A stretch of DNA of 64,000 nucleotides, from positions 62,001 to 126,000 of the IMG/VR virus record IMGVR_UViG_3300035698_007508; one strand, given 5' to 3'. The position numbers and the translations under genes are program-made. The notes below the pieces were generated by a model. The model was given only the letters and a program-made list of their open reading frames with translations, was not told the origin of the DNA and made no database searches. Shown one piece after another: positions 25,052 to 49,487 of this stretch. Position 1 is the stretch's first letter. Every line of letters starts with the position of its first letter. The stretch comes from a virus.

Positions 25052-25168
25052 AAAAAGACTTGACCTACAGATTCAAACACTGCAATTTGTACAGTGGTTG
25101 GAACGATCGGCCCTGATTTTCAGGTGTCGGAACGGCGTGCGCTCCTCTGCAAGGCCGTTTAGCTCTGT

Positions 25169-25208
25169 GACCCGCCTGCTTCCTCCGGCAGGCGGGTCGC
25201 TCCTTTTT
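25169..25208 (+). terminator. Rho-independent terminator after the tail/protease operon
   Basis: A perfect 11-bp stem (gacccgcctgc at 25169-25179 with gcaggcgggtc at 25188-25198), 8-nt loop, followed by gctccttttt ending at 25208. It ends the plus-strand transcription unit whose last gene is the protease. Confidence 0.85.
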
Positions 25209-25315
25209 GTCCCCAAAAGTATCACTATTTCTGACTAAATCAGGCCACTAAATCGGTTATAACTAACTAATAGGGAAGGACTTCCATTGCGGCACCCCGA
25301 TTTTGGGGATCGTGA

Positions 25316-25344
25316 TTGAAATCTGACCCGATTACCTGTATATA
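25316..25344 (+). promoter_or_regulatory. Sigma-70-type promoter ahead of leader RNA
   Basis: TTGAAA at 25316-25321, 17-bp spacer, TATATA at 25339-25344. The expected start near 25352 lies just ahead of the five-codon ORF and hairpins. Called from sequence only. Confidence 0.55.
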
Positions 25345-25374
25345 GTATGACGTGAAACGAGTTTTCACTCAAAT

Positions 25375-25404
25375 GGAGGTACTATCATGCTACCGCAGGG
25401 CTAA
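25375..25404 (+). CDS. Five-codon leader-peptide-like ORF (MLPQG)
   Basis: A ggagg sequence (25375-25379) seven bases ahead of ATG 25387 opens a frame of five codons (Met-Leu-Pro-Gln-Gly) closed by TAA at 25402-25404. A 13-bp hairpin starts 22 bases later. The combination of perfect ribosome binding site, very short ORF and following hairpins is like an attenuation leader, but the peptide has no run of a single amino acid. It could also be a decayed gene start. Confidence 0.35.
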   Translation, partial: GGTIMLPQG

Positions 25405-25426
25405 AAACCCGCACATTGACGCACCT

Positions 25427-25484
25427 CAGGCACTGATTTTGTGTGAAATCGGTGCCTGCGGCTCGTGTCAAGCCGCTCTCTTTT
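25427..25484 (+). terminator. Tandem hairpins, possible attenuator/terminator
   Basis: First hairpin: 25427-25439 (caggcactgattt) with 25446-25458 (aaatcggtgcctg), 13 bp with one G-T pair and loop tgtgtg. Second hairpin: 25459-25463 (cggct) with 25471-25475 (agccg), followed by ctctctttt. The second with its pyrimidine tail could stop transcription; the first could be an anti-terminator partner or protein site. Confidence 0.5.
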
Positions 25485-35443: not shown

Positions 35444-36910
35444 ATGACACGTAGCACGCAAGATCCACCGGGCATCCCTCAGCGAGGCGAAACAGGCGAC
35501 CCGACTACAGGGTTAAAACCTGGCCTGGTGGACTTCGTGCTTCAGCATCATCTGACCCAGCGTAACCCTACGCGACCTCACTACGACTTACGACTCGGTA
35601 CCCCCGACACCGGCCTGTTCTCATGGGCGGTGCCGGGGGCCCGGCTTCCCGAGGAGCGTGAGAAGGTGCTGGCGCCGCAGACAGATCTACACGATTACGC
35701 CTATGGTAACTACCAGGGCAACATCGCCAGCGGGTACGGCGCCGGCCAGGTACGGTTACACGAGCGCGACCAGGCGGAGATCACTAAAGTCACGCCCAAG
35801 ACGATCAGTTTCACGCTGGCCAATACCCGTAATCCCGGGCGATACTCGCTGATTCATATCGGCACCGGCAAGCGTGGCCGCGACTGGCTGTTGATCAAGC
35901 GGCCAGACGTACCAGGCGGCCCGGTAAAGATGATGCCTATCGATGCCGGTAGCACGGCCGAAGCTATAGAGCAAGTGAAGGAGGGTACGGTGAGTAAAGC
36001 GAGTAAGAAAGACGTGTGCCCTAAGTGCGGGAAGACACTCGGCGGGTGTGCCAAGTTTGCTGTCACTGACGGCGAGAAGTTCTTCCACCCATGGTGCTTG
36101 AAGAAGAAGGCCCGGATGCAGAAAGAGTCGCAGGCGAACACACCGCCATGGCTTGATGATTTCACCAAACGTTTGTGGATGCGTGAAAATGCAGGACGTA
36201 CAGGCTACGACCCGGTCAAGCGCGTATGGGGTTCCTACAAGGATATGAACAAGGGCAAGGCTTTACGCGCCGCGTACGGCCCAGGCGTGGTAGCGCCGGC
36301 AGGGCAGACGTTCACGCAGCAGCAGCTGGACGCGCTGGTCCGTAAAAGCGTGCTCAAGCATTGGCAAGACACACAACGCGTGTATCCCGGTGTCGCTACC
36401 AAATCACCGCACGCACAGCAATTGATGGCCGATCTCGTGTACGCAGGTGCTGGCATTGACCCGAAGACAGGCAAGGCCGCGTACCCTAAACTGTGGGAGG
36501 CGATCCAGGCACGTGATGGGGCGGGTGCCGCGGGCCAGTACCATGTGAATTTCACCCCGGAGGGCGGGACCAAAACGCCCAACGTCCGACGTAACGCCAT
36601 GAATCTCAAGGATTACGTGACGCCCATGACCAACGGCTGGAATGCGGCTACGCAGCAGCTGGAAAAGGGCGGCGCAGACCACCTGACGCTGAACAAGCTT
36701 TTGACAGCCGCCGGTAAACTGACAGATAAGCACCCGAGCCCGGAGCAGGCCGAGGCTGGTAACTACCAGAAGGGTCACGTCAGTATGCATGGGTTGGATA
36801 TCTCGATTGAGAATCCACGAGGTAGTACGCGCAAGGGCGTGAGCGCTGACGGTACCGAATGGTCCACGCGTATGGTCGGAGCACATTACGGATACATAAT
36901 TAAAGGATGA
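35444..36910 (+). CDS. Polyvalent protein, N-terminal part: LigD-type 3'-phosphoesterase + zinc cluster + lysozyme-like + half of a pyrophosphatase-like domain
   Basis: Residues 30-153 match the LigD 3'-phosphoesterase domain: FVLQHHLTQRNPTRPHYDLR, SWAVPGA, then GYGAG and the closing DWLLIKR. Residues 191-218 form a Cys/His cluster (VCPKCGKTLGGC ... HPWC). Residues about 240-395 resemble lysozymes (WMRENAGRTGYD, FTQQQLDALV, RRNAMNLKDYV). Residues 437-488 begin the phage InPase-type pyrophosphatase domain (YQKGHVSMHGLDISIENPRG ... HYGYI) but the ORF stops right after. The rest of that domain is found at 37238, beyond an HNH gene. Multidomain proteins of this sort are known from phages as polyvalent proteins, which are thought to be injected with DNA. 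Confidence 0.7.
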   Translation: MTRSTQDPPGIPQRGETGDPTTGLKPGLVDFVLQHHLTQRNPTRPHYDLRLGTPDTGLFSWAVPGARLPEEREKVLAPQTDLHDYAYGNYQGNIASGYGAGQVRLHERDQAEITKVTPKTISFTLANTRNPGRYSLIHIGTGKRGRDWLLIKRPDVPGGPVKMMPIDAGSTAEAIEQVKEGTVSKASKKDVCPKCGKTLGGCAKFAVTDGEKFFHPWCLKKKARMQKESQANTPPWLDDFTKRLWMRENAGRTGYDPVKRVWGSYKDMNKGKALRAAYGPGVVAPAGQTFTQQQLDALVRKSVLKHWQDTQRVYPGVATKSPHAQQLMADLVYAGAGIDPKTGKAAYPKLWEAIQARDGAGAAGQYHVNFTPEGGTKTPNVRRNAMNLKDYVTPMTNGWNAATQQLEKGGADHLTLNKLLTAAGKLTDKHPSPEQAEAGNYQKGHVSMHGLDISIENPRGSTRKGVSADGTEWSTRMVGAHYGYIIKG

Positions 36911-37251
36911 AGATAAAGCTAACATGTGTAGATTGTGGGGCCGCACGGGAGTTTTACCCTAGCGAGTTAAGCGGTATAAGCCGCGCACCGTATCCCGAGG
37001 TCTGGTCGCCGGTCCTACGCCGACGGGTACGTGAGCGCGACAACTATACTTGCCAGCTGTGCGGTACCGCCTATTTAGGCGGGCGTAAGTTATCTGTACA
37101 CCATATCGATTATAACAAAAACAACTGCGCGGATGCTAACTTGATAACATTGTGCCTACCGTGCCATACTAAAACGAATTTCAATAGGGAAGAATGGACA
37201 ATATATATGCAAAGACTACTACAATCGGAGGCGTATCATGCTGTCGCGTAG
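36907..37251 (+). CDS. HNH homing-type endonuclease inserted in the polyvalent gene (114 aa)
   Basis: ATG 36907 overlaps the stop of the preceding part (ATGA). The N-terminus has a CxxC pair (LTCVDCGAAREFYPSEL), and the HNH core is RDNYTCQLCGTAYLGGRKLS, then VHHIDYNKNN and NLITLCLPCH. The core has the expected two CxxC zinc knuckles, the His-His and the Asn. The DNA is AT-richer than the flanks. The last 14 bases overlap the ATG of the second half, whose ribosome binding site (ggagg at 37227-37231) lies within this gene. The insertion point falls between the 'HYGYI' and 'GKDGDHVDVFIG' strands of one domain, typical of endonuclease invasion at a conserved site. Confidence 0.85.
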   Translation: MKIKLTCVDCGAAREFYPSELSGISRAPYPEVWSPVLRRRVRERDNYTCQLCGTAYLGGRKLSVHHIDYNKNNCADANLITLCLPCHTKTNFNREEWTIYMQRLLQSEAYHAVA

Positions 37252-38977
37252 CCCGATTGGTAAAGATGGAGATCACGTGGACGTGTTCATCGGCCCATAC
37301 CCGGCTTGCACGATGGTTTTTATTGTCGATCAGCAGAACAAGGACGGCACTTTTGATGAACATAAGTGCATGCTTGGATTCAGGGACGAGGCAGAAGCCC
37401 GCGCTGGCTACCTCGCCAACTACGAACCGGGGTGGACAGGCTGTGGACCCGTGACAGCCCTATCCATGGGCGAGTTCAAGGAGTGGCTGGACAGCGGTAA
37501 CACGGGTAAGCCGTGTGCTAAGCAGTTCAAGAAGCAGGCTGACAGCGAGCTAAACCTACGTCATATCCTGACGCTAGTCAAGCAGGCCGCAGGCATCACA
37601 GGCTGGCACGGAATAGATTTAGATGGGACTTTGGCAACATACGACAGCTGGAAGGGCGATGACTATATCGGGCGGCCGATCAAACTGATGGCTGACCGGG
37701 TCAAACGGTGGCTGGCCGACGGCCAAGCAGTGAAGATCATGACCACGCGGGGCGGCAACGGCCAACAGGCGATCGATGCAGTACAGGATTGGACTTACGC
37801 CCACTTCGGGGTCCGGCTGCCCGTCACGGACACCAAGGACAAGGACATGATCGATCTGTACGACGACCGGGTGCACCGGGTCCAGAAGAACACGGGCGTC
37901 AAGCAGGCTAGTAACAAGGCCTTCCAGACGGCGCTCGACGCGTCGGACATACCTGGTGATATCTACTTCTACACCGATGGAAAAGAGCGGTGTACCGCGT
38001 GCTTCGGTGACTGGCACGAGCGCGAAGATTGGGATGCCGCAGCTAAGCTGGCCAAGAAACACTTCTCCAACTGGGAAGAGCCTGACGATTCGGAGATAGG
38101 GCGCCCCGACTGGGTTACCAAGTCATACAGCAGCAAGAACATGGCGAAGGACGCCGGTATCCGCCGGGTGATCAAACGCGCCGCCATAGAGCTCGACATC
38201 GAGATCGGTGACACACTGCTGTTTGGCAGGTACAAGAACAGCCCCAAGGTGGTCGAGGACATCGGCACAGACGCCAAGGGCCAGCCTACCGTCAACGGGA
38301 TGAAGCTCCTGGCCTGCCGGATCGAGAAGAAGATGGCAAAGAAGGCCGAGTACGTGATCAATGATTGCCCGACGTGCGGCGACACTACTAAAGACCGTCG
38401 CAAATTGGATCCAGGCGAGAAAGTGGTACATACTGCGGATGTTTGTTATGCGTGTAAGACCAAGCAGGCGGAGAGCAAGCAACGGCTGTTCAAGAAGGAC
38501 GAGCCTTATCCCGCTGTCGAGAACTGTGAGACCTGTGAGCGCTTCGGCCCGACTAAGGACGCCGCTATGGTCAAGAACGTACCACTCAAGGTTGTCACGG
38601 CCGACGAACAAGTGCGAACAAAGCTCGTGGCTGAGCTGGCTGACACGCCGGATAAGCGTACAGTTGGCCTGTCCAAGCGCGCCACGCTACCGCCAGGTAC
38701 CGGTATGCTGTTCGATATCCCAGGCCCGTTCTGGATGAAGGACGTTAAGTTCGCGCTCGACATCGTCTATATGGACAAGCAAGGTACCGTCACTGAGATC
38801 GGACACATGCCGGCGCCGCCTCGTTACGTCCCGGACAGACTGATGCCGCGGTACCAGTCTAAATCTGCGTCCACCGCCATCGCTTTGGAAATGCCAGCCG
38901 GGTGGGCGAATAGCGTGAAGCTACAGCCCGGCGATCGACTAGAGATTGACAAACATGACGATACTGCAGTACATTAA
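37238..38977 (+). CDS. Polyvalent protein, C-terminal part: rest of pyrophosphatase-like domain + HAD phosphatase-like + zinc knuckles + DUF192
   Basis: Begins with ATG 37238 behind ggagg. Residues 3-84 complete the InPase-type domain (GKDGDHVDVFIGPYPACTMV, FDEHKCMLGF, MGEFKEWL). Residues 121-222 are HAD-like, with the DxD motif WHGIDLDGTLATYDSW, a Thr/Arg turn (IMTTRGG) and the acidic DLYDDRVHRVQ. Residues about 365-430 hold several CxxC knuckles (NDCPTCGD, CYACKTKQ, NCETCERFG). Residues about 447-575 fit DUF192 (PPGTGMLFDIPGPFWMKDVK, ALEMPAGW, LQPGDRLEI). The split from the 35444 ORF probably yields two polypeptides that may reassociate through the shared domain. Confidence 0.7.
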   Translation: MLSRSPIGKDGDHVDVFIGPYPACTMVFIVDQQNKDGTFDEHKCMLGFRDEAEARAGYLANYEPGWTGCGPVTALSMGEFKEWLDSGNTGKPCAKQFKKQADSELNLRHILTLVKQAAGITGWHGIDLDGTLATYDSWKGDDYIGRPIKLMADRVKRWLADGQAVKIMTTRGGNGQQAIDAVQDWTYAHFGVRLPVTDTKDKDMIDLYDDRVHRVQKNTGVKQASNKAFQTALDASDIPGDIYFYTDGKERCTACFGDWHEREDWDAAAKLAKKHFSNWEEPDDSEIGRPDWVTKSYSSKNMAKDAGIRRVIKRAAIELDIEIGDTLLFGRYKNSPKVVEDIGTDAKGQPTVNGMKLLACRIEKKMAKKAEYVINDCPTCGDTTKDRRKLDPGEKVVHTADVCYACKTKQAESKQRLFKKDEPYPAVENCETCERFGPTKDAAMVKNVPLKVVTADEQVRTKLVAELADTPDKRTVGLSKRATLPPGTGMLFDIPGPFWMKDVKFALDIVYMDKQGTVTEIGHMPAPPRYVPDRLMPRYQSKSASTAIALEMPAGWANSVKLQPGDRLEIDKHDDTAVH

Positions 38978-44680: not shown

Positions 44681-44708
44681 TTAATACAACGCCCAAACGC
44701 GTTATAAC
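44681..44708 (+). promoter_or_regulatory. terL: Possible phage promoter upstream of terL
   Basis: TTAATA at 44681-44686, 16-bp spacer, TATAAC at 44703-44708. A small inverted repeat (aacgc 44688-44692, gcgtt 44699-44703) occupies the spacer. The same spacing and similar boxes stand before the structured RNA region (46495-46522), which suggests a shared promoter type. A transcript from here would have a very short leader before ATG 44720. Confidence 0.4.
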
Positions 44709-44719
44709 ATGGTAGCGAC

Positions 44720-46498
44720 ATGTCTGTCTCTTTGAACACCGTACACGACGTCCTGGCCAAAGCCGGTGACGGAACAATCCGTCCAGACGAGATCGAAGCA
44801 CTGCTTGATGATCCCGACTTCCAAAAGCACATCCGTGGCGTTAAGCGCTCGGACCTGCTACCAGCCATGTTCAAGATCCACGGTACGGAATACTCCCTTG
44901 CGGACTATCCGCAATTCTGTGCCTTGTACGATGCTCTTTACGTACCAGAGGTGATCTTCATGTGTGGCCGGCAGGTTGCTAAATCAACCAACCTGTCGCG
45001 CTACGAAGTCATGAACTGTATGCAGATCCCTCACTTTCAGGTGCTGTACGTGGCACCGCTGCAGTCACAAACGCACCGTTTTTCCAGTCTGTATCTACGG
45101 GAGTCAATCAACACCTGCCAGTACGCACGCTACTTGCAGGATGCCCGAGTCCAAGATGAAGACGCTGGCCCGATCATGAAGTCGGTTGGGCACCAGTCTT
45201 TCGGTAACGGTGCTGGTATCCAACTCACCTACGCCAAGACCAGCGCTGACCGAGCGCGTGGTATCTTTTGTGACGAGATCGACTGCGACGAGCTCCAGGA
45301 CCACCTGGTGGACAACCTGGGTATTATCATGCAGTCGCTGACTCAGTCCAAGTGGGGTCTCAAGCGTTACACTGGTACGGCCAAGACTGTGGACAACACC
45401 ATCGAGTTCTACTGGCAACAATCCAGCATGGCTGAGTGGGCGATGCCGTGTAGTTGTGGGTATTGGAACATCCCCAACATCGAGGGCAACGTGCTGGACA
45501 TGGTCCAAGTACATGGCCCGTCATGCATCAAGTGCGGGCGCAGGCTTAATGTGCGTGCGGGTGAATGGATTCACGCCAAGCCTGACCTGTCTAATCGCTT
45601 CGTTGGCTATCACATTCCGCAGATCGTCGTTCCGGCCATTACCGAGGACCCACGTAAGTGGATGGAACTGCTAGACAAGGTTGGCCGATACCCGATAGCT
45701 ACGACGTACCAGGAGATCCTGGGGATCAGCAGCTCCATCGGTGCCAGGCTGATCACACAAGAGGACATCGAGAAGTACTCGACGCTCCCCTCCGTACTTG
45801 AACTCCAAAAGAAGTTGAAGAACTACCCGATTACCGTGAGCGGTGTCGACTGGGGTATCGCGGAACAAACATCTTTCACCGTCCATACGGTCATTGGGAT
45901 TCGTCCGGATGGTAAAATACACGTCCTGTGGGCCAAGCGTTACATCGGGTTCGATACCGATACGTTGCTCAAGGATATCGCACAGACACACAGGTTCTAC
46001 CGTTGTAGGCTTATGTGTGCTGACTTCGGCGTAGGGTTCACCCAGAACACTATGCTATCACATCGGTTCGGAATACCGCTCATACAGGTGCAGTATACCC
46101 GACAGCAACAACTGATGACGTACAGGCCGCTACTGGGTTACCCACGCTGGGTGGTCGACAAGGTGGCGGCCCTGGAGTTGATGTACTTTTCCATTAGGTA
46201 CGGACACATCTTCTTCCCGCCTCAGTCCGAGTTCAAACGGTACACTGACGACCTGTTATCGCCATATCAGGAAGTACGCGACGAGCGAGGCCTCGAAAAC
46301 GTGGCCTTTGTTCGTAATCCGAATATGCCGGATGACTTCACACACGCACTATGCTTTGCCATGCTCGGCGCTATGCGGCTGGCCGGCAGCAGCCTACTTG
46401 AAGCTGTACCGCAGGGTGCGATGGGTGCAGATGTTCACACGGTGGTTCAACCCACCACGGACAGCATCGACACTATGGAACTGTTGCGTCCGGCTTAA
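44720..46498 (+). CDS. terL: Terminase large subunit
   Basis: A 592-residue packaging ATPase-nuclease. The ATPase part has Walker A MCGRQVAKST (residues 83-90), Walker B GIFCDEID (about 182-188) and the coupling Thr region KRYTGTAKTVDNT. A four-Cys knuckle lies at AMPCSCGYWN and CIKCGRRL (about 240-280), as in several T4-like and jumbo-phage terminases. The RNase H-like nuclease starts at ITVSGVDWGIAEQ (about 373-378), with a second acidic site RLMCADFGVG and a third near NMPDDFTHA. The enzyme threads DNA into proheads and cuts it. The ATG at 44720 has only a weak ribosome binding site. Confidence 0.92.
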   Translation: MSVSLNTVHDVLAKAGDGTIRPDEIEALLDDPDFQKHIRGVKRSDLLPAMFKIHGTEYSLADYPQFCALYDALYVPEVIFMCGRQVAKSTNLSRYEVMNCMQIPHFQVLYVAPLQSQTHRFSSLYLRESINTCQYARYLQDARVQDEDAGPIMKSVGHQSFGNGAGIQLTYAKTSADRARGIFCDEIDCDELQDHLVDNLGIIMQSLTQSKWGLKRYTGTAKTVDNTIEFYWQQSSMAEWAMPCSCGYWNIPNIEGNVLDMVQVHGPSCIKCGRRLNVRAGEWIHAKPDLSNRFVGYHIPQIVVPAITEDPRKWMELLDKVGRYPIATTYQEILGISSSIGARLITQEDIEKYSTLPSVLELQKKLKNYPITVSGVDWGIAEQTSFTVHTVIGIRPDGKIHVLWAKRYIGFDTDTLLKDIAQTHRFYRCRLMCADFGVGFTQNTMLSHRFGIPLIQVQYTRQQQLMTYRPLLGYPRWVVDKVAALELMYFSIRYGHIFFPPQSEFKRYTDDLLSPYQEVRDERGLENVAFVRNPNMPDDFTHALCFAMLGAMRLAGSSLLEAVPQGAMGADVHTVVQPTTDSIDTMELLRPA

Positions 46499-46522
46499 TT
46501 TTGGGACAAAACAGGGTATAAT
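46495..46522 (+). promoter_or_regulatory. Promoter for the structured RNA region
   Basis: TATAAT at 46517-46522 with TTAATT at 46495-46500 at a 16-bp distance. The -10 box is a perfect consensus. Transcription would start near 46529, one base before a 9-bp hairpin (46530-46538 with 46548-46556). It overlaps the very end of terL, so the following region has its own transcript. Confidence 0.65.
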
Positions 46523-46528
46523 AGGTTG

Positions 46529-47450
46529 TAGAGATATATACTATTGCTATATCTCTTCGAAGGAGTTCTACGGCTCTCCAAGGTAACAAACGCCGTCGCC
46601 ATACCATCACAGGCGTTAAAGGTGATCGACCGGAGCACGTCGTTAAACTGCCCACCCCTCGCACGGTGTAAAACAAAGTGGATGCAATAGCGTCCGGCGC
46701 GTTTGACTACCGATACTAGTCCGTCATGACCAACTCAGACGTTAAAAGGCCTCGTCGTTTGGGCGACGTTAAACCAGGTTAGGCCCAAAGCGTCCACTGA
46801 AAAGTGGGGTCCGATTCCATCCTGGAAGGCAGGCAGGCGCGTATTGAGTTAGCTAGAAGCCCGAGGGTAGATAGCGGCCAATACGTAGCTGAGCTGTAGC
46901 TGTAGCCGTGGCGATGGGCCAAATCGGAAGTCTTGGGTACGACGTTAAATTACCTACTCTAAGCGGCACAGAGTATAAAGAGGCCGCACTACCGTCACCT
47001 GGTCACTCCTTGCGTAATTCGCAAGGGGTAAGTGGTGAGCCATAGGAATGGGCTTAAATTCCAGGCTGGGTCCGTGGCAACTCGCTCGAAAGGGCTATTG
47101 TGTGCCGGCAGCAAGGGGAAGTCTACGCCCCTTCAAGACCCCGGTTTAACCCGCGGTAAAGATAGGCTCGGCGTGGTTGGGTACGTCAACAGGGAAGAAT
47201 AACCCGTCCAACTGGTGTCTGTAGCCACCTCAGTTACAGCGCGTCTGGTCCACGTGTACCAACGGACTCTCTACCAGCACGGAGTAGGATGCTGGCGTCG
47301 CTGTTAAGGTATTTGCAGCTGTGGTTATCCGGGGCACCGGGGTAACTCAACACGACACAGGTGCCTTAACTTTACACGATGTACCGTGTTTATAGCTACT
47401 CCTAATGAATGGATAGCACATGGGTCACGCGGCGTAAGTTGTACGGCCCG
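46529..47450 (+). ncRNA. Candidate giant structured RNA with serial pseudoknots
   Basis: About 920 bases with no convincing coding frame, preceded by its own promoter. A 5' hairpin (46530-46538/46548-46556) is followed by five H-type pseudoknots with perfect helices. PK1 46589-46594/46612-46617 with 46606-46610/46622-46626. PK2 46753-46757/46764-46768 with 46758-46763/46784-46789. PK3 46955-46960/46970-46975 with 46963-46967/46983-46987. PK4 47113-47118/47128-47133 with 47121-47124/47136-47139. PK5 47324-47330/47340-47346 with 47333-47338/47360-47365, where the 47328-47342 pair is G-U. Long-range helices close domains (46811-46816/46922-46927 and 46840-46846/46879-46885, 7 bp). The word gttaaa recurs five times, mostly next to helix ends. 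Resembles GOLLD or ROOL-type ornate RNAs in style; family unknown. The 3' end is not defined. Confidence 0.65.
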
Positions 47451-47461
47451 GTAAGGTAGAA

Positions 47462-47677
47462 ATGCACTACCTCTGGATAATCCCGTGGTTACGGGAAGTT
47501 GACGCCGTCGCCGGAGCCGTGTTAGGCTCTTTGGCGAAGGTAATAGGCTTTGTCGCCGAACCATTTCCGTTCGTACGCACAGGCCCAATCGGAGACTATT
47601 ACAATGAAAAGCAAGAATCCATTCCCGTACCTGAATGCCGGCGTAACCGGCTGCTGCTCCGTCGGTTTACGGCGTGA
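47462..47677 (+). CDS. Possible small membrane protein (71 aa)
   Basis: ATG 47462 follows aaggtaga; the start codon lies in the loop of a hairpin (47454-47458 with 47468-47472). The product begins MHYLWIIPWLREVDAVAGAV and has a hydrophobic helix to about residue 37, then a charged tail with Arg-rich end (CRRNRLLLRRFTA). It overlaps the next candidate by 74 nt in another frame, so one of the two may be false. If real, its translation could be controlled by the structured RNA. Confidence 0.35.
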   Translation: MHYLWIIPWLREVDAVAGAVLGSLAKVIGFVAEPFPFVRTGPIGDYYNEKQESIPVPECRRNRLLLRRFTA

Positions 47678-47798
47678 GCGTTACCCCACTTTCAAACCCC
47701 GATATCAAACAGGCAATATATTGTCACACCGCAGGAAACCGGCTCGGCCATGGCGCACCTGGAATGAGGGCGCCCGGTCGGCCAATCCGGATACATAG
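47604..47798 (+). CDS. Small basic protein (64 aa), same frame as the next ORF across a TAG
   Basis: ATG 47604 follows ggag at nine bases distance. The 64 residues are basic and aromatic (MKSKNPFPYLNAGVTGCCSV, later KPARPWRTWNEG). The TAG at 47796-47798 is followed in the same frame by 69 further sense codons (to 48005) with membrane-protein character. No family recognised. The frame also reads naturally in codon choice, more so than the overlapping 47462 frame. Confidence 0.5.
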   Translation: MKSKNPFPYLNAGVTGCCSVGLRRERYPTFKPRYQTGNILSHRRKPARPWRTWNEGARSANPDT

Positions 47799-48008
47799 GA
47801 GGACATACTAGTTAATTGGATCGCGTTCGGACTCGCAACGTTGGCCGTTATAATTCGCCTACGTAATGATCGCGTGCGTGCGGACTTGAGACACAAACTC
47901 GCACCACGCAAGACGCAACCGCAGCCGCAACCTGAACGGAACGTTCGTGATATCACAGCAGTGGTAGAGATCGAACCCCCGCGACTGCCGGCGATTGGAA
48001 TTGTGTAG
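47799..48008 (+). CDS. Small membrane-anchored protein without a canonical start codon
   Basis: The frame from 47799 to the TAG at 48006-48008 encodes a short N-terminal part, a membrane helix (NWIAFGLATLAVIIRLR), a basic/Pro-Gln-rich linker (APRKTQPQPQPERN) and an acidic-Pro tail (VVEIEPPRLPAIGIV). A perfect aggagg lies at 47797-47802 overlapping the upstream stop, but at the expected start distance the in-frame codons are CTA (47808) and GTT (47811), with ATA at 47805. Either a non-standard start, a mutated start or amber read-through from the preceding ORF is needed. The one-helix plus Pro-rich tail layout is reminiscent of spanin-like proteins. Confidence 0.45.
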   Translation, partial: EDILVNWIAFGLATLAVIIRLRNDRVRADLRHKLAPRKTQPQPQPERNVRDITAVVEIEPPRLPAIGIV

Positions 48009-48014
48009 GCGGCT

Positions 48015-48503
48015 ATGCTAATAGAACTCATAGCTGTACTCATACTTGTGCTGATCATTTTGGGCTCTGTAGCGAGCGGTACGTTGACCGTTTTGCTCGG
48101 AGCCATTATTTTCGCGACGATTGTACAGTTGATCTGGAAACTCCAGAGCAATTCCGCGTTGCGTCGTGAAGCAGCGGATGCGGAAGACCAACTGCAGGTC
48201 GATATCGAACTTCTGGAGGCTTGCCGGCGCGATCGTAAGATCAGCGAAAATCTGGCAGCCGAATTGGTACAGGAATTCGGACACATCCCCGATACGAGAG
48301 AGATTGGCCACGCCGTCCGGCTACGTCAGCGGAATCTGGAAGTGCTGCGTGGTATGTTCGTACAGCAATCCGGGGCGCTGTACGGTAGTGCGATTCTCTT
48401 GGGAGTCGCTACATTTCTACAACCGCTGGCAGGCATCGGCCTGATCGGTGTCTATGCGTTAACTCGCCTGCCGGCCATGCGTGTGCTGTTGCGCACGACA
48501 TGA
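48015..48503 (+). CDS. Membrane protein with three hydrophobic segments (162 aa)
   Basis: ATG 48015 begins MLIELIAVLILVLIILGSVA, an obvious membrane helix, followed by a second one (GTLTVLLGAIIFATIVQLIW). A charged coiled-coil-like middle (EAADAEDQLQVDIELLEACR) leads to a C-terminal hydrophobic pair (GSAILLGVATFLQPLAGIGL). There is no catalytic motif. The preceding small membrane gene and the terminator after it make these a short operon at the end of the RNA region. Could take part in lysis or superinfection exclusion. Confidence 0.55.
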   Translation: MLIELIAVLILVLIILGSVASGTLTVLLGAIIFATIVQLIWKLQSNSALRREAADAEDQLQVDIELLEACRRDRKISENLAAELVQEFGHIPDTREIGHAVRLRQRNLEVLRGMFVQQSGALYGSAILLGVATFLQPLAGIGLIGVYALTRLPAMRVLLRTT

Positions 48504-48512
48504 CCGTACTTT

Positions 48513-48548
48513 GCCACCCCGCTCCTGCTTCGGCGGGATCGGGGTGGC
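48513..48548 (+). terminator. Strong hairpin, probable terminator
   Basis: A 9-bp stem (gccaccccg 48513-48521 with cggggtggc 48540-48548) enclosing an inner cctgc-ttcg-gcggg hairpin with a UUCG loop. There is no T-run afterwards (gccttctcat), so stopping efficiency is uncertain; it may also block exonucleases. Confidence 0.6.
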
Positions 48549-48593
48549 GCCTTCTCATACTTACGCTAACTTTTAACTATCAGAGGAAGAATC

Positions 48594-49487
48594 ATGTCGA
48601 AAGATCCAATCAACCGCGATCCGTACTGCGCCGTCCAACTTGCGAACGTCGAATACGGCGGCAAGGCTACCGACAAGTGGCTTGTCGAGATCGAAGACGA
48701 ACAGGGACAGATGGTCCCCCTACCGGGCGTATCCGGTATTCACGGCGCTGGCTATGCGCTCGTACCTAACCAGCAGATCCACGACATGGTGGGTGACGTC
48801 CTGACCCGTACCGGGCGGAAGTTTGCACCCGTGCCTAGTTTTGGTGACGGTCATAGCAAGGCCGTGTTCTGGGATGGTGCCAAGCGCTACTCGTCCAAGT
48901 GGTACTGCGAGGACATTGCCGAGTCACTGCCGGGCGGTCACGTTATGGCTCTGGGTGTGGAAGCGGTGAACAGCTACGATGGCAGCCAGCCTGTAGGCGT
49001 GCGCTTCTTCGCCATGAGCATGCTGTGCTCCAACCAGTTCTACCTGTCCAACATGCTGGGGAATTTCATCTTCCGGCACGTCAACAGGGAAGCCGGTATA
49101 CTACTGCAGGATAACGTGGAAGACGCCTTGGCGCTGTTGCGCCAGCAGGCCGACCGTTTCCTCCAGGTCGCGCCGGTGTTCAAGCAGCTGCAGGATACCA
49201 AGGTTGACGGCATGGCCGGCTACCTGAAGTACCGCCAGGCCCTGAACGAGGATTGCTGGAAGCGTACGCGTGACCCGGACGTACTGGACGAGCTGCATGG
49301 TTGCGGCGTCACCCGTTCCTACGGTATGCAGCAGACGGCCAGCCCCAACGACATGTGGGGTATCCTGAACGCGTACACCGCCGTATGCACACACAGAATT
49401 GGCGGATTCAACGGCTCCGCAGCGTCTGACCGCGTGACACAGTTCACGATCGATCAGGCCGGCATCAACGCGCCCCGAGGTATGTAA
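48594..49487 (+). CDS. DUF932-family phage protein (297 aa)
   Basis: ATG 48594 follows agaggaagaatc. The middle region reads VNSYDGSQPVGVRFFAMSML, then CSNQFYLSNMLGNFIFRHVN. It follows the DUF932 pattern of a 'sh.G..pv....vRvvC.N' core with an upstream beta half (WLVEIEDEQGQMVPLP). Members are widespread in phages and plasmids; their function is not known. It is the first gene of the replication/repair half of the window, directly after a hairpin terminator. Confidence 0.6.
   Translation: MSKDPINRDPYCAVQLANVEYGGKATDKWLVEIEDEQGQMVPLPGVSGIHGAGYALVPNQQIHDMVGDVLTRTGRKFAPVPSFGDGHSKAVFWDGAKRYSSKWYCEDIAESLPGGHVMALGVEAVNSYDGSQPVGVRFFAMSMLCSNQFYLSNMLGNFIFRHVNREAGILLQDNVEDALALLRQQADRFLQVAPVFKQLQDTKVDGMAGYLKYRQALNEDCWKRTRDPDVLDELHGCGVTRSYGMQQTASPNDMWGILNAYTAVCTHRIGGFNGSAASDRVTQFTIDQAGINAPRGM

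Follow-up and report, generated by a model that had tools for sequence, protein, structure and literature searches.

The DNA directly downstream of the terminase gene terL is best explained as encoding a new, structured and modular long noncoding phage RNA of about 0.9 kb, with its own promoter of a clade-specific class and a possibly degenerate pistol ribozyme domain, a reading to which we give a probability of about 0.55. It is based on one sequence, found in a window of 64,000 nucleotides (bases 62001–126000 of a 126,754-base IMG/VR virus record). The reading is drawn from the lack of open reading frames and of protein similarity, a promoter class that elsewhere precedes noncoding RNAs, the pistol domain, two modules (D1 and D2) common to noncoding RNAs of related phages, and an enrichment of strong and A-linker pseudoknots. 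It is weakened by ordinary nested folding energy, by the lack of a 3' terminator, by a pistol helix P2 of only two base pairs, by the weakness of D2 when taken alone and by the absence of the RNA from this site in about 25 terL relatives. The initial annotation had proposed a pseudoknotted RNA, transcribed from a promoter of its own, immediately after terL, and this part is supported; a relationship to GOLLD, ROOL, OLE or HEARO and a packaging role are not. The RNA would be ordered as a 5' hairpin and PK1, the pistol, D1, PK3 and D2, and four further pseudoknots. The features, from sequence, fold prediction, covariance model or pseudoknot scan, are:

46494–46522, plus strand: promoter, with -35-like CTTAAT (46494–46499), a 17-nt spacer and -10 TATAAT (46517–46522)
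46530–46557, plus strand: 5' hairpin, perfect 9 bp, AT-rich, AGAGATATA/TATATCTCT (sequence, fold)
46589–46626, plus strand: PK1, H-type, AACGCC/GGCGTT and ATCAC/GTGAT, AAA-rich linker (pseudoknot scan)
46753–46814, plus strand: pistol ribozyme domain, RF02679 (cmscan 50 bits, gathering cut-off 34.5, E 3.9e-6)
46810–46928, plus strand: domain D1, helix 46810–46816/46922–46928 (7 bp) and inner helix 46817–46821/46913–46917
46840–46885, plus strand: hairpin CGTATTG/CAATACG inside D1, where G015 has its variable arm (sequence, fold)
46955–46987, plus strand: PK3, H-type, UAAAGAG linker (pseudoknot scan)
46993–47048, plus strand: module D2, CGUCACCUG, hairpin 47005–47029 and AAGUGGUGAGCCNNAGGAA, closed by UCACC/GGUGA
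47113–47139, plus strand: PK4 (pseudoknot scan)
47214–47239, plus strand: PK6, the possible sixth knot of the initial annotation (pseudoknot scan)
47266–47295, plus strand: PK7, ACTCT/GGAGT and CCAGCA/TGCTGG, missed by the initial annotation (pseudoknot scan)
47323–47366, plus strand: PK5, the strongest pseudoknot (pseudoknot scan)
47462–47677, plus strand: small ORF A, 71 amino acids, the first gene past the RNA

The locus, its relatives and its promoter

The terL gene (44720–46498) encodes a protein matching PHROG 675 and is followed by a gene-free stretch of about 930 bases (46523–47461). Neither strand contains an open reading frame of at least 80 amino acids between 46587 and 47324; the only other long gap of this kind in the window is 25081–25442 (about 360 bases). 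No protein-level similarity of the region was found by blastx or by six-frame comparison with the proteins of related contigs, so that the description of some 950 bp lacking a credible gene is borne out. An origin as a decayed, inverted terL was rejected, there being no blastx or frame match. Small ORF A, for which blastp gave no significant match, corresponds in order and size only to the small ORF adjoining terL in relatives and is followed by a DUF932 gene (48594). The window contains no tRNA genes. Elsewhere in it, an HNH-like homing endonuclease frame (36911–37237) interrupts an InPase gene (PF18823), giving ORFs 35444–36910 and 37238–38977, and a subtilase (PF00082, 22706–25051) carries an intein with a LAGLIDADG domain.

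Alignment scans of IMG/VR recovered about 25 TerL relatives, 43–56% identical, on phage contigs of up to about 210 kb; single-sequence scans of viral contigs with TerL and DUF932 gave no close relatives. At the DNA level, the RNA region is absent from the records of all of these approximately 25 relatives; at the terL site, small ORFs directly adjoin terL and a gap like 46587–47324 is missing. Compared with its neighbours, terL has the opposite orientation in these relatives, which implies that the region was rearranged, and the same downstream operon is present without the RNA. An insertion of some 1.4 kb splits the TerL of one relative (L017 1050–2466). A full-length homologue of the RNA was not found, and a plasmid search gave no match. 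Several shorter matches were discarded: weak DNA matches to the PK3 region in G024 and G026 lie inside coding sequence and are due to chance; exact matches at G005 127388 and G015 131973 are coding; and for the word TAGCTGTAGCCGTGGC the other 30 IMG/VR matches are all in coding sequence, while its two genome matches comprise a simple repeat and a site that seems to be coding.

The promoter overlaps the stop codon of terL. Its pattern, TTAAT-N14-16-GKTATAA, occurs at 30 sites in 14 of 24 related phage records and not once in the reversed control; nearly all sites have identical spacing and each genome uses one strand. The window contains two, at 44681 before terL and at 46495 before the RNA. 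Residues 46494–46560 are 79% identical to L013, and at least eight relatives have the same promoter arrangement downstream of terL, but facing terL. In the relatives the class precedes a tmRNA of G005 (L159 1549–1917, 82.7 bits), a Y-RNA-like array of the same genome (L150 4379), a strongly folding RNA of 680 nt in G015 (promoter at L101 2156) and a 480-nt noncoding stretch in G005 (L177), as well as ordinary genes. The TATAAT box, put forward earlier as the RNA's own promoter, thus belongs to a clade-specific class, and from the spread of this class and the loci it precedes we take the box to be a genuine promoter, of a type that serves noncoding RNAs as well as other loci. Judging by the -10 box, transcription would start near 46530, at the 5' hairpin. 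In L008, L013 and L077, the conserved promoter facing terL is immediately followed by an intrinsic terminator, which predicts a very short RNA, possibly involved in attenuation or antisense control of terL.

No terminator was found between 46523 and 47470, that is, before ORF A, and this makes the main rival explanation an extended, structured 5' leader belonging to the operon of ORF A and DUF932. There would then be no free RNA, and the pistol and pseudoknots would govern how that mRNA is processed, how stable it is or how it is translated. The clade class supplies no further promoter in front of the operon, which fits such a leader, as does the location of pistols between small genes in other phages. 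A leader of 930 nt would, however, be unusually long in a genome as compact as that of a phage, the operon of the relatives does without it and the promoter class elsewhere precedes noncoding RNAs; we consider a leader unlikely, if still a serious contender.

The pistol ribozyme domain and the pseudoknots

Pistol is the sole Rfam family found in the whole window. At E ≤ 10 no other credible match was obtained in the region, the second line being a chance snoRNA match below its cut-off, and no covariance model of group I or group II introns or of other Rfam 15 RNAs matched there. Like RF02679, the domain has a helix P1 (CGUCG/CGACG, 46753–46757/46764–46768), a pseudoknot between loop UUUGGG and CCCAAA (46758–46763/46784–46789) and a helix P3 (UCCACU/AGUGGG, 46793–46798/46803–46808) capped by a GAAA loop. 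In an alignment with six other phage pistols, all core columns that are invariant among the seven are kept. By the published pistol anatomy and GU-junction criteria (PMC4604425), the 2-nt GU junction is present and the predicted scissile bond is G46809^U46810. The domain differs from the family in being embedded in a 0.9-kb noncoding region and in its P2, which consists only of GG 46777–46778 paired to CC 46811–46812, two pairs against about four in the six other phage pistols; the full P2 partner CCUGG for CCAGG is displaced about 10 nt downstream. With so short a P2, cleavage at the predicted site is uncertain, and a pistol with this displaced alternative strand may be dead. In the initial annotation, residues 46753–46789 (PK2) and a GAAA hairpin (46794–46807) had been given as an H-type pseudoknot and a hairpin. 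The helices are there, but by sequence and model match they are a pistol ribozyme domain, not a new knot. The long-range helix 46677–46685/46790–46798, noted earlier to compete with the GAAA hairpin, would destroy P3, and the outer D1 helix 46810–46816/46922–46928 would compete with P2. The records of the TerL relatives contain no pistol above the cut-off. A 146-kb phage contig (L007/G014) has three, together with hammerhead-like sequences, between small genes.

An independent scan recovered PK1 to PK5 and the possible sixth pseudoknot as complementarities, and added PK7. The region has seven strong pseudoknots against 3.05 ± 1.28 in dinucleotide shuffles, a number reached by 0 of 150 shuffles and by 1% of a second set of 300; about 10% of the other 932-nt tiles of the window carry as many. 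Four pseudoknots have AAA linkers, a number that no tile out of 132 and 1% of the shuffles reach, by a measure chosen post hoc. The tmRNAs of the clade, which are certainly pseudoknotted, score no better on the same scan, which makes it a weak detector either way. Serial pseudoknots as the design of the whole molecule, as proposed initially, are thus upheld in that the knots are present, but their enrichment is only modestly above chance. The nested folding energy of the region is ordinary, with z between -0.3 and -3.3 for 300-nt pieces against -0.5 ± 1.4 in ordinary tiles. The gttaaa word reported to recur five times does so as CGTTAAA, whose five plus-strand copies are all in the RNA region, with none elsewhere on the plus strand of the window; on both strands the window has nine, against 3.9 ± 2.0 expected.

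The ordinary energy and the tiles with equally many strong knots would suit filler or decayed DNA left by the terL rearrangement, holding a pistol that was gained by horizontal transfer or is dead, together with pseudoknots formed by chance, and the degenerate P2 and patchy distribution point the same way. Against this, the promoter is conserved and intact, as is the pistol core, filler of 0.9 kb is seldom retained in phage genomes, and two modules are common to noncoding RNAs of relatives (see below). We regard filler as improbable.

A strongly diverged or partly lost tmRNA was considered seriously since four relatives carry tmRNAs and the knots are alike in style. These are G005, G007, G015 and G026 (L188, L186, L185 and L187), with tags such as GNTLKLAA, GKQPSKAEPMKLAA and ANLFNKLASKTAKVETPAFAFALAA; the tmRNA of G026 sits in a tRNA array, that of G005 is behind the same promoter class, and contig G000 has no tmRNA of its own. 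The serial pseudoknots with UUAAA-type linkers, the knot 46955–46987 resembling tmRNA PK1, and a VTWSLLA-stop reading whose UAA lies within the loop of a hairpin, with an upstream GG-N-CGAC, would agree with such an origin. The identity was rejected on finding no T-arm with acceptor stem in 46400–48020, no match of standard or permuted tmRNA models at E ≤ 10, a negative ARAGORN result and chance-level similarity to the clade's tmRNAs. The VTWSLLA-stop reading is moreover the only tag candidate rather than a conserved frame, and in L177, which carries D2, the presumed tag is interrupted by an immediate stop. A tmRNA origin is therefore largely refuted and very improbable.

Modules shared with noncoding RNAs of relatives

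Domain D1 contains the conserved words CTGGAAGGCAGG (46822–46833) and GTAGCTGTAGCCGTGGC (46896–46912), and its outer helix starts at U46810, the nucleotide following the predicted pistol cut. The helices 46811–46816/46922–46927 and 46840–46846/46879–46885, pointed out earlier as long-range pairings, are present by sequence and belong to D1. The best DNA match of the region in relatives is to the G015 noncoding RNA (L101 2243–2316), with a class promoter 140 bases upstream. It comprises a word match of the 19/20 type and a second collinear block, with a two-block score reached by none of 1500 shuffles, and GTAGCTGTAGCCGTGGCGRTG is preceded in both RNAs by CTG..AGGCAGG. The helix flanking the D1 words differs in sequence, CCAUC/GAUGG here and GUGCACC/GGUGCAC in G015. 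That D1 is common to the two predicted RNAs is well supported. The G015 RNA (L101 2185–2865) has a fold with a z of -7.6 over 681 nt. It shares the promoter class and D1 with the window RNA; in contrast, the remainder cannot be aligned, it lacks a pistol and it precedes Y-RNA-like elements and a DUF2828/DUF7788 gene.

Module D2, whose hairpin 47005–47029 has a z of -5.1, shares its words CGUCACCUG and AAGUGGUGAGCCNNAGGAA with the G005 RNA (L177, about 1660–1704), the 3' word AAGUGGUGAGCCNNAGGAA being exact in only these two of 31 records. The score against L177 was reached by 31 of 2000 shuffles, for which reason the sharing of D2 is suggestive. The G005 RNA (L177 1531–2012) has the same promoter class, and there too D2 is preceded by a possible pseudoknot, but it is half as long and otherwise unalignable. 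L177 1531–2012 and L101 2185–2865 are predicted to be undescribed, promoter-driven noncoding RNAs, each with one module in common with the window RNA. The search for homologous regions in related phages, proposed earlier as a check, thus yielded modules but no full-length counterpart.

Other RNAs are found in the same genomes. In G005, the tmRNA is directly followed by an RNA of about 310 nt (L159 1925–2235), with a perfect acceptor stem and T-arm, a large insertion and a z of about -3; it is not a known family. Arrays of Y-RNA-like or tRNA-like small RNAs in G005 (L150 4100–5045) and G015 (L101 2860–3850) lie directly before a DUF2828/DUF7788 protein, presumably Ro60/TROVE-like; a search for Ro60/TROVE with PF05731 gave no match. 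A sub-threshold YrlA match is present at L101 2887–3000 (E 6e-4), and in G005 a tRNA with a long insertion adjoins the array. DUF7788 is found in G005, G015 and G020, and not in G000.

Proposed maturation and comparison with known RNAs

As a long noncoding RNA, the region would be transcribed from the promoter at 46494–46522 as a discrete transcript starting near 46530. The pistol would cut G46809^U46810 co-transcriptionally, before strand 46922–46928 emerges and pairs with 46810–46816; the polymerase reaches that strand more than 100 nt past 46810, so cleavage first and closure of D1 second would be a natural, if unproven, order. The 3' product would begin exactly at the closed D1 helix and so have a protected end. 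By analogy with GOLLD and ROOL, the likeliest role would be that of an abundant, stable scaffold or RNA-only particle. More speculatively, and only as a tentative possibility, the RNA may represent a new large modular class in a clade of phages of about 160–210 kb that use one dedicated promoter class to express many structured RNAs. The cut of the built-in pistol would then set the first nucleotide of the downstream folded domain, or the moved P2 strand would have made the pistol regulated or purely structural. No function is known for large ornate phage RNAs, and no natural role for pistol ribozymes; if the reading is true, a pistol inside a promoter-driven noncoding RNA of 0.9 kb would be one concrete case for examining the two questions jointly. 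The promoter class is of practical use too, since it pointed directly to a tmRNA, to Y-RNA-like arrays and, in related phages, to three or more structured RNAs that had not been described.

When compared with known systems, the RNA resembles the phi29 packaging RNA in position only, near terL. The packaging role suggested for it initially is not upheld: the region has no Rfam match to that RNA and is far longer, and relatives with homologous, 49–56% identical TerL proteins have no RNA there. With tmRNA (RF00023) it shares the style, serial H-type pseudoknots and A-rich linkers, and it differs in having neither tRNA domain nor tag frame nor model match. The most abundant transcript of phage ICP1, which measures about 800 nt and lies in an orf-less space of 1 kb (PMC7567579), belongs to another phage and another neighbourhood, and is by description similar in size and in its orf-less phage locus with no assigned function. 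GOLLD and ROOL are often located near tRNA islands (PMC12286853), whereas our window has no tRNA genes; the Rfam check proposed in the initial annotation gave no match to GOLLD, ROOL, OLE or HEARO models on 46400–48600, even at E ≤ 10. The RNA is like GOLLD and ROOL in its size, phage origin, lack of an open reading frame, multiple pseudoknots and own promoter (PMC12286853).
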